In this document: positions 168 to 62,762 of the stretch, piece by piece
Layout of the letters: every line of letters begins with the position of its first letter
Position numbering within the stretch: the stretch's first letter is position 1
NCBI RefSeq assembly: GCF_001927245.1
Contig: NZ_MJUX01000002.1
Coordinates: 434,001 to 498,000 of the forward strand
Direction of reading: 5' to 3'
Length of the DNA: 64,000 bases
From: Acuticoccus yangtzensis
Lineage (GTDB): Bacteria > Pseudomonadota > Alphaproteobacteria > Rhizobiales > Amorphaceae
Position numbers and translations under genes: made by a program
Notes under the pieces: model-generated
Databases searched by the model: none
Told to the model about the DNA's origin: nothing
What the model saw: the letters and a program-made list of their open reading frames with translations, nothing else

Positions 168-629
168 GTGAGTCTCGCCCGTCACATGGCGGTGATGCGG
201 AACGCGCCGATGCTGAAGTCTCTGGGTGAAGAGGCTTTGAAGCTCCTCGCGTTCGGCAGCTTGCCGCGGTCCTACAAGCCAAGGCAGGCCCTGTTCGAGG
301 CGGGGGACGATGCCGAAGGTGCCATCCTGATCCTGGGCGGGCAGCTTCGTCTCGTCCCCGCAGCGATCGGCGGAGCGCCGCGCGTCGTCGGTGTCGGCCA
401 CCTGATCGACGAGCTTGCGCTGATCGTGCCGGCCCAGCGCAGCATGTCCGCCGTCGCGCAGACCACCGTCGAGGTGCTGGAGCTCCCGCGGGACCAGATG
501 ATGCGGATCCTCGAAGAATATCCGGACGCGGCGAACATGCTGCGCGAACGCCTCGCCAAACGCACGATGGCGTTGATCGACGAGGTCAACGCCCTGCGCG
601 ACAGGATGGACGGTCCGCCGCGCGATTGA
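168..629 (+). CDS. Small cyclic nucleotide-binding domain protein (CRP-like sensor without HTH)
   Basis: The protein is about 153 residues from a GTG two bases after the upstream stop; an ATG six codons later (186) is an alternative start. It consists almost entirely of one cNMP-binding beta-roll, with FEAGDDAEGAILILGG resembling the first half of a CRP sensor domain. It ends with a helix resembling the CRP dimer helix. There is no helix-turn-helix after it, so it is unlikely to be a transcription factor by itself. Tight spacing to the OmpR-type regulator suggests an accessory role in that signalling system, which is inference. Ligand residues are not clear enough to say whether it binds cAMP or cGMP. 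Confidence 0.7.
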   Translation: MSLARHMAVMRNAPMLKSLGEEALKLLAFGSLPRSYKPRQALFEAGDDAEGAILILGGQLRLVPAAIGGAPRVVGVGHLIDELALIVPAQRSMSAVAQTTVEVLELPRDQMMRILEEYPDAANMLRERLAKRTMALIDEVNALRDRMDGPPRD

Positions 630-697
630 CGCCGCGCGCGCGAACGCGCCGGCCAAGCGCGCCCGGCCGCCGTCTCCGCGCCGCCCGGCCTGTTCCG

Positions 698-2782
698 TCA
701 ACCGGCGAGGGAGTGGGAGGCCGCCGGCGCCGCCAGAAGGCGCTCCTTGAAGCGCTCCAGCGGCATCGCGTCGCCGAAGTGGGTGCCCTGGGCGTAGCGC
801 ACGTCGTACGCGGCCACGCGCTGCACATCGAGCGACGTCGCCACCGCCAGCGCGGACACCATCAACCCCCGTTGCCGCGCCGCCTCGATGAGGGCGCGCA
901 AGACGAGGTCGCCCGCCCCCGTTTCGGCACTGCGGATCGCATCGAGCGGCAGCTTGACGTGGCGCAGCGGCAGGCTGCCGGGGCTGAGCAGCGCCCCCGC
1001 CGCCTGCTGCGCCCGCTGCACGACGCCGACACCGCTCGACAGAAGATCGAGGAAGCGCGTGCGCAGCGGCCAGGTGAGGCTCGGGCGCGGGTCACCGTCG
1101 AGCTGCAGCCGCAGCCGTCCGCCCGAACGGCTGAGGATCGCGCGCGCTTCGTCCAGCCCGTCCAGCACTTCCGCGGCGTGAAGGTGGGCGCTGCGCAGCG
1201 GCAGGATGCAGACGGGCAGCCTGTCGCATCCGGCCGCGAGGCTCTCGAGATCGCGGACCATCAGCTCCACCACCGCGGCACCCACCTGCGGCAACAGGCT
1301 TTGCTCCTCCTCCTCGCCGATGAGGGAGAGGTCGGCGAGGCGTTCCTCGTCGCGCCAGCGTGCGGCGACGTCCATCGCCACGACGGCGCCCGTCTTCACG
1401 TCGACGATCGGCTGGTAGAGGTTCACGAAGGCGCCCGCCTTGAGGGCGCGGCGGATCCTCTTGCGCCGCTCGCTGCGCCCCTCGTGCTCGCGCTGCAAGG
1501 CGGTATCGTAGCGCGTGGCGCCGAGGGAGCGGTCGCTCTTGGCGTGGAACAGCGCCATGTCGGCGGCGCGGTAGAGCTCGCCCGAACTGTCCGCGTCGGA
1601 CGGGAAGGCGGCCGCGCCGATCGACAGGTTCACGGTCATCGGCATCCCGCGATATTCGAACGCCACGTTGCGCACGTTGGCGAAGCGCTCGACGAGATTG
1701 TGCAGTTCGTCCGCGTTGCCGAGGTCAGGGATGACGATGGCGAACTCGTCTCCGCCGAGGCGGGCGAGCAGATCGCCGCCCCTGAGATTGGCCGACAGCG
1801 TGCGCGCCACCGCCCGCAGCGCCTCGTCCCCGGCCTCGTGGCCGTGCACGTCGTTGATGGTCTTGAAATGGTCGAGGTCGACGAGCATCAGGCCGACGCT
1901 ACGCTGATTGCGGGCGGCTGCCGCGATGTCATGGTCGATGCGCTGCTGCCAGTGGAAGCGGTTCGGCACGCTGGTCAGGCTGTCGATGTTGGCCGCCGAC
2001 CAGAGGCGCACCTGCGTTTCGCGCTCCTCGGTCACGTCCTGCAGGATGCCGTAGACGGTGTCGCTGCCGTTGTCTTTGAGGGCGACGTAGCCGATGGAGC
2101 GCACGATGCGGCGCTGCCCGTCCGCCCGCAGCATGGGCAGGACGTAGCTGTAGCCGGCCCGGTGCTCCTTGGCGCGCTTCAGGTTGGAGCGCACGATCTC
2201 CCGCACGTCCGGCTCGTAGAAGGCGATGGCGTCGTCCATGGTGAGCCGCTGGCCGGGGGCGAGACCGTGGATGCGGTAGGCGTCGTCGGACAAGGTGAGG
2301 CGGCCGGTCGCGATCTCGAGCTGCCAGAAGCCGATGCCGGAAATGTTGTCGAGCGCGTCGTTGGCGGCGGCGGTGAGCACGTGGTCGCGCTCGTCGAGGC
2401 CCTGCATCTCCTCGTTCAGCTTCTTGGACTCGCGCAGGAGGTCGAAGACGGTTTCGGCGCTGAGGAGGGCGCGTGCCTTGTCGCCGTCCTCGTCTTCGGC
2501 GCGCATGAGGAGGATCGGATCGTCCTCGTAGCGGCGGTCGCACAGACCGAGCCAGGGCGTATCGTCGAGCGGGATGCGGCCGATCTCGCTCTCCGGCACG
2601 GCGCCGTAGCGGGCGGTGGCGTCGGCGATCAAGGCGAGGGTTTCGGCGTCGACATCGCGTTCAGCGAAAGTCCCAGCCGAGACTCGTGTGCCATCATGGG
2701 GCCAGATGAGGATGATGTCGCGCAGATTGCCAGCCCACTGAGCAAGGTGTATCAGGCGGGTTTTCTGCTGCAGAGTTTTCAA
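698..2782 (-). CDS. PAS-GGDEF-EAL protein, probable diguanylate cyclase with degenerate EAL domain
   Basis: This 694-residue protein has an unassigned N-terminal region (1-115), a PAS_3-like sensor fold (about 145-255), a GGDEF domain (about 262-425) and an EAL-like domain (about 440-690). The GGDEF signature is intact at 343-347, with an RGGD inhibitory I-site at 334-337, so c-di-GMP synthesis with product feedback is likely. The EAL domain keeps YQPIV (456-460), but the ExL position reads DVA (471-473) and the later loop reads GTHFGDAMP, so phosphodiesterase activity is doubtful. No transmembrane segment is evident, so it is probably cytosolic. It is divergent from the type I secretion genes, and a shared control region is possible. 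Confidence 0.85.
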   Translation of the reverse strand: MKTLQQKTRLIHLAQWAGNLRDIILIWPHDGTRVSAGTFAERDVDAETLALIADATARYGAVPESEIGRIPLDDTPWLGLCDRRYEDDPILLMRAEDEDGDKARALLSAETVFDLLRESKKLNEEMQGLDERDHVLTAAANDALDNISGIGFWQLEIATGRLTLSDDAYRIHGLAPGQRLTMDDAIAFYEPDVREIVRSNLKRAKEHRAGYSYVLPMLRADGQRRIVRSIGYVALKDNGSDTVYGILQDVTEERETQVRLWSAANIDSLTSVPNRFHWQQRIDHDIAAAARNQRSVGLMLVDLDHFKTINDVHGHEAGDEALRAVARTLSANLRGGDLLARLGGDEFAIVIPDLGNADELHNLVERFANVRNVAFEYRGMPMTVNLSIGAAAFPSDADSSGELYRAADMALFHAKSDRSLGATRYDTALQREHEGRSERRKRIRRALKAGAFVNLYQPIVDVKTGAVVAMDVAARWRDEERLADLSLIGEEEEQSLLPQVGAAVVELMVRDLESLAAGCDRLPVCILPLRSAHLHAAEVLDGLDEARAILSRSGGRLRLQLDGDPRPSLTWPLRTRFLDLLSSGVGVVQRAQQAAGALLSPGSLPLRHVKLPLDAIRSAETGAGDLVLRALIEAARQRGLMVSALAVATSLDVQRVAAYDVRYAQGTHFGDAMPLERFKERLLAAPAASHSLAG

Positions 2783-57625: not shown

Positions 57626-59164
57626 TCAGCCCTTGAAGGCGGCCGCGTGCTTCTCGCGCAGGACGTTCTTCTGCACCTTGCCCATGGTGTTGCGCGGCAG
57701 GGCGTCCACGAAGTCGATCAGCTTGGGCTGCTTGAAGCGGGCGAGCTTGTCGGTCAGCGCACTTTCGATCGACGCCGCATCCAGCGAGGCGCCCGCGCGC
57801 GGCACGATCACCGCCACCACGCCCTCGCCGAAGTCCGGGTGCGGCACGCCGATGACGGCCGACTCGTCCACCCCCGGCAGCTCGTCGATCACGCTTTCGA
57901 TCTCCTTCGGGTAGACGTTGAAGCCGCCCGAAATGATGAGGTCCTTGCCGCGCCCGACGATGTGGACATAGCCGTCCTCGTCCACCTTGCCGAGGTCGCC
58001 GGTGGTGAACCAGCCGTCCGCCGCCAGCTCCTCGGCGGTCTTCTCCGGCATCCGCCAATAGCCCTGGAACACGTTGGGGCCGCGCACCTGGATCATGCCG
58101 ATCTCGCCCTGCGGCAGGATCTTCACCTCCTTGGACTCCGGCTCGACGACGCGCAGCTCCACGCCCGGCAGCGGGAAGCCCACCGTCCCCGCACGACGGT
58201 CACCGTCATAGGGGTTGGAGGTGTTCATGTTGGTCTCGGTCATGCCGTACCGTTCCAGGATCGCCTTGCCGGTGATCTCGCGGAAGCGGTCGTGCGTCTC
58301 GGCCAGAAGGGGTGCGGAGCCGGACACGAAGAGGCGCATGGACTTTGACGCTTCGCCCAGCCCCGGCTCGGCGATCAGGCGCACGTAGAAGGTCGGCACA
58401 CCCATCAGCGAGGTGGCGCGCGGCATCAGCGCGATGGCTTCCTTAGCGTCGAACTTCGGCAGGAAGATCATCGACGCGCCGGCGATGAGCGTGACGTTGG
58501 TCGCCACGAACAGGCCGTGCGTGTGGTAGATCGGCAGGGCGTGGATGAGGACGTCGTCCTTGGTGAAGCCCCAGTGGCCGACCAGCGTCTCAGAGTTCGA
58601 CGCGAGGTTGGCGTGGCTGAGCATCGCCCCCTTGGACCGCCCTGTGGTGCCGGAGGTGTAGAGGATCGCGGCCAGATCGTCCGGCCCGCGCGGCACGTCC
58701 GTTTCCATGGTCAGCGCATCGGACACGCCGGCGAGGAAGGTCCCCGCGTCGTTGTCGGCCGCGTTCCAGACGCCGAGCGTCTCCAGCTTGGCGCCGACCT
58801 TCTCCGCGATCGGGCGGATGGCGGCCTCGTCCTTCGGGTCGCACACCACCAATGCCGGTTCCGCGTCGCCGACGAAGTAGGCGACTTCCGCGGCGGTGTA
58901 GGCGGTGTTGAGCGGCAGGAAGATCGCGCCCGCCCGCACCACGGCGAGGTAGAGCATCAAGGCTTCGATGGATTTGGGAACCTGCACGGCCACGCGGTCG
59001 CCGGGCTTCACGCCGAGTTCCATGAGCCGCACGGCGAAGCGGCCCGAGACGTCGCGCACGTCGCCATAGGTGTAGTGCCGGGTCGGCGTGCCGGGGATCT
59101 CGGCGAAGGGTGCAGCGTCGTCCTTGCCGGCGAGCAGCGCGTTGATGAGATAGTTAGCCGTCAT
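57626..59164 (-). CDS. matB: Malonyl-CoA synthetase (MatB)
   Basis: This 512-residue acyl-adenylate enzyme joins malonate to CoA. The P-loop LYTSGTTGRSKGAMLSHANL near 161-180, the MatB-specific LPIYHTHGLFVATNVTL near 204-220, ERYGMTETNMNTSNPYDGDR near 297 and the final NTMGKVQKNVLRE closely fit the rhizobial enzyme. The C-terminal lysine lies in that last motif. Upstream TRAP genes are the expected malonate carrier. The first 11 bases overlap the end of an AT-rich gene. Malonyl-CoA decarboxylase (matA) is not in the window. Confidence 0.95.
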   Translation of the reverse strand: MTANYLINALLAGKDDAAPFAEIPGTPTRHYTYGDVRDVSGRFAVRLMELGVKPGDRVAVQVPKSIEALMLYLAVVRAGAIFLPLNTAYTAAEVAYFVGDAEPALVVCDPKDEAAIRPIAEKVGAKLETLGVWNAADNDAGTFLAGVSDALTMETDVPRGPDDLAAILYTSGTTGRSKGAMLSHANLASNSETLVGHWGFTKDDVLIHALPIYHTHGLFVATNVTLIAGASMIFLPKFDAKEAIALMPRATSLMGVPTFYVRLIAEPGLGEASKSMRLFVSGSAPLLAETHDRFREITGKAILERYGMTETNMNTSNPYDGDRRAGTVGFPLPGVELRVVEPESKEVKILPQGEIGMIQVRGPNVFQGYWRMPEKTAEELAADGWFTTGDLGKVDEDGYVHIVGRGKDLIISGGFNVYPKEIESVIDELPGVDESAVIGVPHPDFGEGVVAVIVPRAGASLDAASIESALTDKLARFKQPKLIDFVDALPRNTMGKVQKNVLREKHAAAFKG

Positions 59165-59801
59165 TTTCGTCTTTTTTCTCAGCCGTAGTTTCATCTGGAG
59201 AAGGGAGCAGTAGGCGCTCTGCGAAATCCAGTAGGCTCGTTTCTTTTGCGCTTCGCTGAACGATGCCTAAATATTGAGCCAATTTCGAAATCTGCTTCAT
59301 AATTGGTTCAAAGGCTGTCCCTAAGGCAGAAGCCGTTCCTGCTACTCTAATAAATTTTTCATTGATCCGGTCCCAACGGATATTATCGTGCATTATTTCT
59401 GCCTGCAGGGAAATTATTTTCTCAATAACCAAACTCTTTTTTTCTTCAGAAGCCGAGCTGACCTCTATCAGCCTTCTAATCTTTTCGAGCAAAGAAATAA
59501 TTTTCTCTTTATCTGAAGGTGAAATGACTTTATCATCTCTGGTCATGGATTTTTGTATTTTGAGTCTCTCACAGGCAAGTATTATTCTATCAAAAGTCGC
59601 TGTGAACCCATCTCCCATATCAACATAATCAGGTAAATCTGTAATTTCTAAATTCAAAACGCTTGATGCTTGCTTTAATTTAACAAGCAATATCGTCACA
59701 TTTGCTTTATTTACTGACGGTATCGCATCAATATATGCGTCAGCCAGGTACAAAAATGCCAATTCTGGATCTGATGGCAAATCATCGTACAACAAGTTCA
59801 T
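59154..59801 (-). CDS. AT-rich gene of unknown function inserted in the malonate operon
   Basis: I do not recognise the 215-residue product. It is predicted almost wholly helical: an acidic N-terminus (LLYDDLPSDPELAFLYLADA), a coiled-coil-like middle (about 108-145; EKIISLLEKIRRLIEVSSA), an amphipathic or weakly hydrophobic stretch near 165-190 (ASALGTAFEPIMKQISKLAQ), and a charged tail. No signal peptide, Cys or catalytic motif stands out. Four lines I counted are 48, 40, 37 and 30% G+C, far below both neighbours. The start overlaps the dctM stop as ATGA. Its last codons are borrowed from the first 11 bases of matB. ATGA occurs at both edges. Confidence 0.8.
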   Translation of the reverse strand: MNLLYDDLPSDPELAFLYLADAYIDAIPSVNKANVTILLVKLKQASSVLNLEITDLPDYVDMGDGFTATFDRIILACERLKIQKSMTRDDKVISPSDKEKIISLLEKIRRLIEVSSASEEKKSLVIEKIISLQAEIMHDNIRWDRINEKFIRVAGTASALGTAFEPIMKQISKLAQYLGIVQRSAKETSLLDFAERLLLPSPDETTAEKKDENDG

Positions 59802-61117
59802 AGGGCAGGTCCCATGAGGAGATTGGGAAGGCCGGTCGCAAGTCCCGGGAAGATCGACAGGATCACGATCGCGAGGATCATGCATAGGACATAAGGGAGC
59901 GATCCGAGAAGAATCGTCTTCAAGGGTATGTCCGGTGCGATCCCGTTGATGACGTAGAGGTTGAGGCCGACCGGGGGCGAGATGAGGCCGATCTCCATGT
60001 TGATGGTGAGGATCACGGCGAACCAGTAGGGATCGAAGCCGGAGGCGACGACGATGGGGAGGAGGATCGGCGCCGTCATCAGGATGACCGCGACCGGCGG
60101 CAGGAAGAACCCGGCCACCAGAAGGAAGACGTTGATCGCCGCCATGATGACCCAGCGGTTGGCGTCCAGCTCCTGGATCCACCCGGCGATCGCCTGGGTG
60201 ACGAAGAGGTTCGACATCATGAAGGCGAAGACGCCCGCCGCGCCGATGATGAAGAGGATCATCACGCTTTCGCGGGTGGAATCGCGCAGGACCGTCCAGA
60301 GATCCGTGGGGTTCCACAGCCGGTAGATGACGACGGCGACGAGGATGCAGAGGAGCGCGCCCACCGCGGCCGTTTCGGACGGTGTCGCCACGCCGCCATA
60401 GAGCGCGTAGAGCACGCCGACGATGATGGCGAGGAACGGAAGCACGCGCGGCAGCATCTCCGCCCGCTCGGCCCAGGTGTAGCGCGTTGCCGAAAGTGCC
60501 ACGCCCGCCGCGCCCTGCCGCCAGGTCGAGAAGATCGACCAGATCATGAAGAGGACGACGAGCAGCAGCCCTGGCACCACGCCGGCCAGGAACAGACGGC
60601 CGATCGAGGTCTCGGTGGAGATGCCGTAGACGATCATCGTGACCGACGGCGGGATGAGGATGCCGAGCGTTCCGCCCGCCGCGATGGAACCCGCCGCCAC
60701 GGAGGAGGGGTAGCCGCGCTTTCGCATCTCGGGGATGCCCATCTTGCCGATGGCGGCGCAGGTGGCGGGCGAGGAGCCGGACATCGCCGCGAACAGCGCG
60801 CAGGCGCCGAGATTGGAGACGACGAGGCCGCCCGGAACGCGCGTCAGCCAGCGGTCGAGCGCTTCGTAGAGGTCGGCGCCGGCGCGGGTGGAGGCGATCG
60901 ACGCGCCCATGATGATGAACATGGGCAGCGAGAGGAGCGCGAAATCGTCGAGGTTGGCGAAAAAGATCTCCGGCAGAAGCTCCAGCGAGCGCGGGCCGTC
61001 GAACACGAGCAGGAACAGCGCCGAGACGACGAGCAGGCCGACCGCCACGGAGATGCCGGAGAAGAGCACGACCACGGTCGCGAGCCCGATGAGGGCGCCG
61101 AGAGTGAGCGGATCCAT
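59798..61117 (-). CDS. TRAP transporter large permease (DctM family, probable MatM)
   Basis: The 439-residue membrane protein has about 12 helices. It carries GSSPATCAAIGKMGIPEM near 125 and GGTLGILIPPSVTMIVYG near 160, which are conserved in DctM. It is the main channel of a sodium-driven TRAP carrier for a carboxylate, and malonate is inferred from matB downstream. Its C-terminus, ending LLMGPAL, appears complete. The stop is shared with the start of the AT-rich insert gene. Confidence 0.93.
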   Translation of the reverse strand: MDPLTLGALIGLATVVVLFSGISVAVGLLVVSALFLLVFDGPRSLELLPEIFFANLDDFALLSLPMFIIMGASIASTRAGADLYEALDRWLTRVPGGLVVSNLGACALFAAMSGSSPATCAAIGKMGIPEMRKRGYPSSVAAGSIAAGGTLGILIPPSVTMIVYGISTETSIGRLFLAGVVPGLLLVVLFMIWSIFSTWRQGAAGVALSATRYTWAERAEMLPRVLPFLAIIVGVLYALYGGVATPSETAAVGALLCILVAVVIYRLWNPTDLWTVLRDSTRESVMILFIIGAAGVFAFMMSNLFVTQAIAGWIQELDANRWVIMAAINVFLLVAGFFLPPVAVILMTAPILLPIVVASGFDPYWFAVILTINMEIGLISPPVGLNLYVINGIAPDIPLKTILLGSLPYVLCMILAIVILSIFPGLATGLPNLLMGPAL

Positions 61118-61121
61118 CAGG

Positions 61122-61736
61122 TCACTCCGAGAGGGGGCGGGTGGCGGGGTGGAGCGCGGCCTTCTCGCCCGCGTCCGGCCGTTCGGCGAGACCGTGGCCG
61201 AGCACCGCCTCACCGGCCGGCGGCGATTGCGGGGCGACGATGTCGGCGAAGAGCTGCAGCGCGTAGAGCGCGAAGCCGACCGGCATGGCGATGTAGGGGA
61301 TCCAGAGCTTGACGCCCCACACCGTGTCCGAGCGCCAATTGCGGTCCCAGGCGAAGTGGAACAGCTCGAACCCGTAATAGAGCATCAGGAGCGCGATGAA
61401 GAGCGTCACCGCCGTTGTGACGGCGATGAGGACGCGGCGCGCGCCCGGCGGCAGCATGAGAGGCACCAGCTCGACGTTCACGTGGCCGCGCAGAAGCTGC
61501 ACGTAGGGAAGGCCGATGAGGGTGGCGCCGATCATCAGATAGGTGACCGCCTCGGTCTGCCAGATGGTCGAGTGGTTCAGCACGAAGCGGACGAAGATGA
61601 GGTGGCAGGTGATGGCGACCGAGGCGACGATCATGGACGCCGACAGGACGCCGCAGACCTTCGAGACGAGGCGCACGGCCCGTCCGAAGGTGTGAGCCGG
61701 CCCCCGAGGGGGCCGGGCCGTGGCGATGGAGGTCAT
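61122..61736 (-). CDS. TRAP transporter small permease (DctQ family, probable MatQ)
   Basis: The 204-residue protein has four membrane helices (about 30-50, 65-85, 105-130 and 150-170). The DctQ pattern IGLPYVQLLRGHVNVELVPL is in the middle. It forms the membrane complex with DctM, whose gene begins four bases later. The C-terminal 35 residues are a polar tail. Confidence 0.9.
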   Translation of the reverse strand: MTSIATARPPRGPAHTFGRAVRLVSKVCGVLSASMIVASVAITCHLIFVRFVLNHSTIWQTEAVTYLMIGATLIGLPYVQLLRGHVNVELVPLMLPPGARRVLIAVTTAVTLFIALLMLYYGFELFHFAWDRNWRSDTVWGVKLWIPYIAMPVGFALYALQLFADIVAPQSPPAGEAVLGHGLAERPDAGEKAALHPATRPLSE

Positions 61737-61769: not shown

Positions 61770-62762
61770 CTATTCGACCGCGAGCGCCGCGTCGAGCAGT
61801 TCCTGCCCGTTCGGCGTCTCGGCGACGAACTCCTTGTAGGAGGACGCCTTCGCGACATCGCGCCAGGCGTTGAACTCGGCTTCCGTCATCTCGGCGATTT
61901 CGACGCCGGCTTCGCGGAACTTGGCGGTGGCCTCGTCGTCCTCCTTCTTGGCCTCCTCGAGGTAGAAGGCCTGCGCCTTCTTGCCGGCCTCCAGCAGCGC
62001 GGCCTGCTGCTCCTCGGTCAGGCTCTCGAAGGTGGATTTGTTCATCAGCAGCGGCTGATACATGAACCAGAGCGAGTAGTCCGACACCGGGGTGAAGCAC
62101 TTCACCTGCTCGTAGAGGCGGTAGGAGACGAAGCTGGAGGACGAGGTGTTGGCCGCGTCGACCACGCCCGACTGCATCGCCGAATAGAGTTCGGACGAGG
62201 GGAGCGAGGTGATGGAGGCGCCGGCTTCGGCCAGCATCTGCTCGAACGCCTTGCCGGCGGCGCGCATCTGCTTGCCCTTCACCGTGTCGGGCCCGGTGAC
62301 GCACTCCTCGGCCCCGGCGAATCCACCGGCGAGGTAGCCGTGGACGAGGACCATCACGTCGTCCTCGGCCATGATCTCCTCGAGCTTCTCCATGAAGGGG
62401 CTGTCGACGAGGCGGGCCGCATGGTCGTGGCTCTTCACGAGGCCGGGCATCAGGGTGAGGTTGTAGGCGGGGCGCTGGCCGCCGGCGTAGGACAGCGGCA
62501 GCACCGTCATATCGAGCCGCCCGCGCGACAGCGGGTTATATTGCTCGTTCGCCTTGAACAGCGAGGCGGAGGGATAGATCGTGATGTTGATGTCGTCGTC
62601 CGCGACCTCGTCGGCGACCATCTGCGCGACCTTGTGGCGCACGTCGCTGGTCGACCACTGGTGGCTGAGCTTCAGGTCGACGGCCAGCGCCTCGGTCGGC
62701 GCGAAGGCGAGGGTCGGGGCGAAGGCGAGCGCGGCGAGCGTCGCCGTGAGGCGGTAAGCCAT
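61770..62762 (-). CDS. TRAP transporter substrate-binding protein (DctP family, probable MatP)
   Basis: The 330-residue periplasmic protein has a signal peptide with the repeat FAPTLAFAPTEALA (cleavage near 28). The mature part shows LKLSHQWSTSDVRHKVAQMV and the DctP loop GKQMRAAGKAFEQMLAEAGA. It binds a small carboxylate, probably malonate given matB. It is the first gene of the operon, 119 bases from hemH upstream. Confidence 0.92.
   Translation of the reverse strand: MAYRLTATLAALAFAPTLAFAPTEALAVDLKLSHQWSTSDVRHKVAQMVADEVADDDINITIYPSASLFKANEQYNPLSRGRLDMTVLPLSYAGGQRPAYNLTLMPGLVKSHDHAARLVDSPFMEKLEEIMAEDDVMVLVHGYLAGGFAGAEECVTGPDTVKGKQMRAAGKAFEQMLAEAGASITSLPSSELYSAMQSGVVDAANTSSSSFVSYRLYEQVKCFTPVSDYSLWFMYQPLLMNKSTFESLTEEQQAALLEAGKKAQAFYLEEAKKEDDEATAKFREAGVEIAEMTEAEFNAWRDVAKASSYKEFVAETPNGQELLDAALAVE

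Follow-up and report, generated by a model that had tools for sequence, protein, structure and literature searches.

The dctPQM-matB operon carried by the window, by which we mean the whole 64 kb stretch of DNA analysed here, raises the question of how a single AT-rich gene came to lie exactly between dctM and matB, and of what that gene might encode. A preliminary description had placed an ORF of low G+C content there, starting on the dctM stop codon and sharing its last 11 bases with the 5' end of matB, and each of these points was confirmed when frame, strand and coordinates were checked (Table 1). The gene, here termed X, has 215 codons followed by a TAA stop, and its frame is unbroken throughout. 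Its G+C content is 38.9% (0.47, 0.33 and 0.37 at the three codon positions); that of matB is 67.4%, with 93% at third positions, and that of dctM is 65.9%, with 91% at third positions. Across the 64 kb, taken in 648-base segments, the mean G+C content is 0.681 (s.d. 0.043) and the minimum of 0.398 falls on X, more than 6 s.d. under the mean. The only other low spot is a short AT-rich stretch (51.7% G+C) preceding an ORF on the plus strand from 41823 (MYFTLESHQFGAFSHLVEQMYALRHRVFCEQLQWVD...), which by eye is LuxI-type autoinducer synthase-like.

Table 1. Features of the dctPQM-matB operon and of the insertion joint (positions are those of the window).
Feature	Position	Strand	Evidence or remark
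matB (malonyl-CoA synthetase-like, AMP-binding), intact	57626..59164	minus	Pfam AMP-binding 3.7e-85
second AAC copy	59153..59155	minus	right edge of insertion; first two bases complete the TAA stop of X
inserted gene X	59154..59801	minus	215-codon ORF, predicted all-helical, member of SSB-tip cargo family
C-terminal tail of X, residues 188-215	59157..59240	minus	predicted disordered, acidic end DENDG; DDxIPF in most relatives
new matB start codon, 11 bases inside X	59162..59164	minus	ATG ACG GCT AAC, from insert
first AAC copy (ancestral matB codon 2)	59796..59798	minus	left edge of net 643-bp insertion
ATGA: dctM stop TGA and X start ATG	59798..59801	minus	same ATG is the matB start in empty-site relatives
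dctM (TRAP transporter large permease), intact	59798..61117	minus	Pfam DctM 8.5e-93; start at 61117 inferred
dctQ (TRAP small permease)	61122..61736	minus	Pfam DctQ 6.4e-28
dctP (TRAP solute-binding protein)	61770..62762	minus	Pfam DctP 1.6e-43

Comparison of the dctM-matB junction in related genomes identified an empty site. In two genomes of the same genus (G003 and G005) the two genes are coupled by a single ATGA with nothing between them (...CCTGCCCTATGAACCACCTCATC...); MatB and DctM are 91% and 92% identical to those of the window in G003, and 85% and 92% identical in G005. Removal of 643 bp from the window, cut between two copies of AAC, yields ...CCTGCCCTATGAACTATCTCATC..., and over 123 bases the rejoined sequence matches G003 without gaps, the identity being 87%. 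Rejoined in this way, matB would encode MNYLINALLAGKDDAAPFAE, against MNHLIDALLAGKDDAAPFAE; as it stands, MatB begins MTANYLIN in the window and MNHLID in the relatives. Since the 643-bp deletion restores a gap-free empty site, the ATG of X is the one that starts matB in the relatives. These alignments indicate that the ancestral matB start (ATGAAC) has been taken over by X and that a substitute ATG for matB is supplied from the 3' end of X, and the ATGAAC now at the start of X could be either the host's own or one brought by X through microhomology. Both dctM and matB were left intact by the insertion, and X is positioned so that it would be translated by coupling to the dctM stop codon. X was not found in any of the seven other genomes of the genus that were searched. 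We conclude that there is strong support for X being a horizontally acquired insert, of net 643 bp, in the dctM-matB overlap.

The preliminary description had proposed just such an insertion into a joint once coupled by one ATGA, leaving the host genes whole, and this stands, but its suggestion that the same tetranucleotide marks both edges does not. The second ATGA (59161-59164) is insert sequence that now gives matB its start and is not a duplicated copy of the target; judged against the empty site, the repeat common to both edges is AAC (3 bp, perhaps AACT). A transposon or integron cassette was rejected as the source, the 643-bp insert having only this 3-4 bp repeat and no recombinase. Across the X joint and the joints of the related genes described below there was no terminal repeat and no common target duplication.

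Lying co-oriented within dctPQM-matB, X might be taken for a native part of malonate uptake and activation, as a subunit or a regulator. We regard this as very improbable, because X is missing from G003 and G005, where the operon is present, as well as from the other genomes of the genus, because its composition is foreign and because its homologues are found on plasmids or in operons of other kinds. The empty sites in operon-bearing relatives rule out a native malonate gene, and on these comparisons an ancestral malonate role is already refuted. Separately, in two other genomes of the genus (L027 in G006 and L028 in G001) a different gene of ~1.3 kb, malonyl-CoA-decarboxylase-like by eye, separates dctM and matB, and this joint is therefore also open to native gene-order change.

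The product had been described as belonging to no recognised family. This holds for named families, X having no accepted match in Pfam, NCBIfam, PHROGs or PADLOC; however, a real although unnamed family exists. With X alone as query, one relative among 60 relatives was recovered (L003 at 4e-6), as were six members from the class (2e-8 to 7e-3), and there was no match in the collection of genome contigs. Family profiles matched 10 of the 398 genomes searched in the order, 11 of 385 in the class and 7 of 399 in the phylum (overlapping sets whose counts include the window's own genome), so that the family is present in about 1-3% of sampled genomes, and further members were found in genome contigs. 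X aligns over its full length to two profiles, both of which include X itself, at E 3.9e-108 and 8.9e-53 (180 bits); given the single-query matches, its membership does not come solely from profiles containing X. A search of 15 members against Pfam, NCBIfam and PHROGs gave no significant family-wide match (a bPH_4 match of 0.0053 lay under its cut-off), and a prophage or phage gene was rejected after no match was seen in phage records (tblastn, three members) or viral contigs. Close members have pN of 0.19-0.30 with pS of about 0.8, near saturation, and are therefore under purifying selection. The majority of the members found are on chromosomes, with host genes on either side, and X itself occurs sporadically, as a lone AT-rich gene flanked by host genes to which it is unrelated. 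On this evidence X belongs to an unnamed, sporadic and previously undescribed alphaproteobacterial accessory family; in the open-licence papers searched we found no report of it, or of SSB-tip mimics in cargo or defence proteins.

Structure prediction bore out the helical character first ascribed to the product. The model of X is a helix bundle (mean pLDDT 72.6) with residues 188-215 disordered, and that of a member bearing IPF has the same plan (mean pLDDT 76.7). A fold search of both models against the PDB returned nothing at E <= 0.001, and a profile search of PDB sequences gave only coiled matches at chance level. The predicted plan of the family is a helical body of ~190-200 residues, a low-confidence linker of proline and charged residues and then, in 20 of the 29 members, a tip like that of SSB. 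The last residues of these 20 members copy the C-terminal tip of SSB (DDxIPF or a variant of it), the forms seen being DDDIPF, DDEIPF, DDKIPF, DDEVPF, DDDVPF, DDGIPF, DNEVPF, DEENPF and close variants. One SSB gene was found in the genome of the window, and its product ends EPFDDDIPF. It is on this tip of SSB that partner proteins of replication and repair dock, and in one reported case loss or change of its last residue abolishes binding (PMC11981726; PMC7145534). Most members share with bacterial SSB an acidic-plus-IPF tip (DDDIPF in SSB-Ct) after a flexible proline-rich linker, but whereas SSB has an OB fold the family body is helical and without detectable relation to SSB; for X itself there was no Pfam match to the SSB OB-fold domain (PF00436), and the model is all-helical.

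In contrast to SSB-Ct, X has no IPF. It ends in DENDG where the Bradyrhizobium member L074 ends in DDGIPF and therefore looks like a cut tip, and we infer that it was probably cut exactly before IPF, the docking tip being lost at the junction. It is because X has lost the tip that the SSB likeness could not be seen in the preliminary description. The tip is also absent from eight other members of the 29; several other members have an acidic tail without IPF, and on the tree several events are required to account for tip loss. As several members lack it, the distribution argues that the tip is not essential to every member. Two of the tip-less members look broken, L070 reading DMDDEI and then unrelated sequence and L052 stopping at IEPPKEC ahead of any tip. 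We also noted SSB-like tips on two further frames: a divergent helix-turn-helix regulator ending GIDDDIPF that adjoins the family member on Methylosinus plasmid pMSC49d (L077 3998-4759, minus strand), and a 630-residue frame ending LDDDVPF after a poly-proline stretch, ~3 kb downstream of the family member in L101 (about 555-2447, minus strand), which is another possible SSB-tip protein.

A tip of this kind would compete for SSB partners, and some members are carried on Methylosinus, Methylobacterium and Methylorubrum plasmids. On these grounds the family might serve mobile elements such as plasmids; competition with SSB tails could, for instance, damp the SOS response or recombination as DNA enters a cell. 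We think this unlikely, given that most members are chromosomal and that no mobility genes adjoin X.

Horizontally acquired genes inserted into operons are part of operon evolution. The preliminary description had proposed that homologues be looked for at other operon junctions, and at least three further members are embedded in core operons, at ruvA-ruvB, glmU-glmS and pdhB-pdhC. The member L097 starts on the ruvA stop codon as TTGA, with ruvB following as ATGACCCGTAACCCC, and G535 has the empty site, where ruvA runs directly into ruvB, again with a TTGA overlap, as TTGACCCGCAATCCC; this is the same start-stop overlap layout as that of X. The stop codon of L062, between glmU and glmS, overlaps the glmS start as TAATG; G1096 has the empty site, and in this case host bases were lost, the insert having taken the place of the spacer and of the end of glmU. 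L055 replaced part of the pdhB-pdhC spacer and is absent from that site in G267, G338 and other genomes. In a genome of the same genus as that carrying L055 (L125, in G1105) a different single ORF occupies the pdhB-pdhC spacer, and this joint has therefore taken up genes more than once. As in known operon insertions, a foreign gene of no named family lies between co-transcribed genes, but the joints seen here differ from these in being nucleotide-precise at stop-start overlaps, with a host start codon taken over, and in that one family is placed in at least four different operons.

IPF is absent from all four operon-embedded members and from 5 of the 25 others (p = 0.005; p = 0.002 if the two evidently broken members are left out), both comparisons being post hoc and the cases few. 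As there is no common target duplication, terminal repeat or recombinase, the simplest account of the precision of the joints is that illegitimate insertions are rare and that selection has favoured those which left the neighbouring genes whole and were expressed from the operon. A bolder proposal, which we offer as doubtful, is that SSB-tail mimics spread among alphaproteobacteria as bare ORFs, landing exactly on the stop-start joints of host operons, borrowing the host start codon and giving the next gene a new one, and that members captured by operons shed the tip, capture and loss of docking being coupled.

X might instead be a neutral or decaying passenger, a translated fragment of a cargo gene that has no function and does the operon no harm. 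It lacks the terminal IPF, has lost part of a central motif (the near-invariant DRDRTR reads MHDNIR in X) and has possibly lost its own start codon; moreover its branch (3.53) is the longest of the 29, and it pairs with the tip-less L052 (support 96/91). The long branch and MHDNIR may reflect relaxed constraint. Yet its 215 codons are unbroken in AT-rich DNA, in which stop codons arise easily, its alignment to the family profile covers the full length of the protein, and the three other operon-embedded members are also intact. We hold a passenger of this kind to be somewhat unlikely, although for X itself it is a close rival to an active protein that lacks the tip.

The preliminary description had suggested that X may be a defence, toxin-immunity or regulatory gene and that homologues be looked for in defence islands, and support for defence is partial. 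L061 adjoins the reverse transcriptase-Toprim gene of a type I-C retron; on three Methylobacterium/Methylorubrum plasmids the family member (L078, L079 and L131) is followed by an MmeI-type IIG restriction-modification gene and a PLD-like gene; and a PIN-domain gene follows L101. Many members have no defence neighbour. In PADLOC the best matches of relatives were marginal (1.4e-4 and 4.3e-4, to the candidate systems PDC-M14B and PDC-M55C); they come from single members, that to PDC-M14B lying in the central helical region, and are too weak for membership, and X itself had no match. PDC-M55C was not found in the window's own genome. Together with a patchy distribution as single-gene cargo, these neighbours and candidate-system matches would fit stand-alone anti-phage proteins, such as single-gene abortive infection systems or sensors, with X active and the tip serving as sensor or tether. 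This can be entertained tentatively, but the many members without a defence neighbour, the lack of a catalytic motif or fold match and the absence of the tip from X all count against it.

The reading we prefer, with roughly even confidence, is that X, a single gene of this unnamed family, was acquired recently, and that the family protects its hosts by docking on the partners of SSB. The tip would dock on SSB-binding replication and repair enzymes, as SSB's own tail does, and would so bring the helical body to them; the docking role is suggested by a short motif that X lacks. Most plausibly, members would be host-protective accessory proteins, anti-phage or related to DNA damage, and the few that lie beside retron or restriction genes perhaps speak for such protection. 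X itself, lacking the tip, would then be either a variant that is expressed along with the malonate operon or a gene beginning to decay, and it probably keeps at most the activity of the body.

At this locus a foreign gene has entered an operon, to the exact nucleotide, at an overlap that couples translation and for which the empty site has been identified, and the same insertion layout recurs in a second, unrelated operon, ruvAB. The family to which X belongs is an unannotated family of cargo genes whose protein ends copy the docking tip of SSB, and would link mobile cargo directly to the replication and repair machinery.
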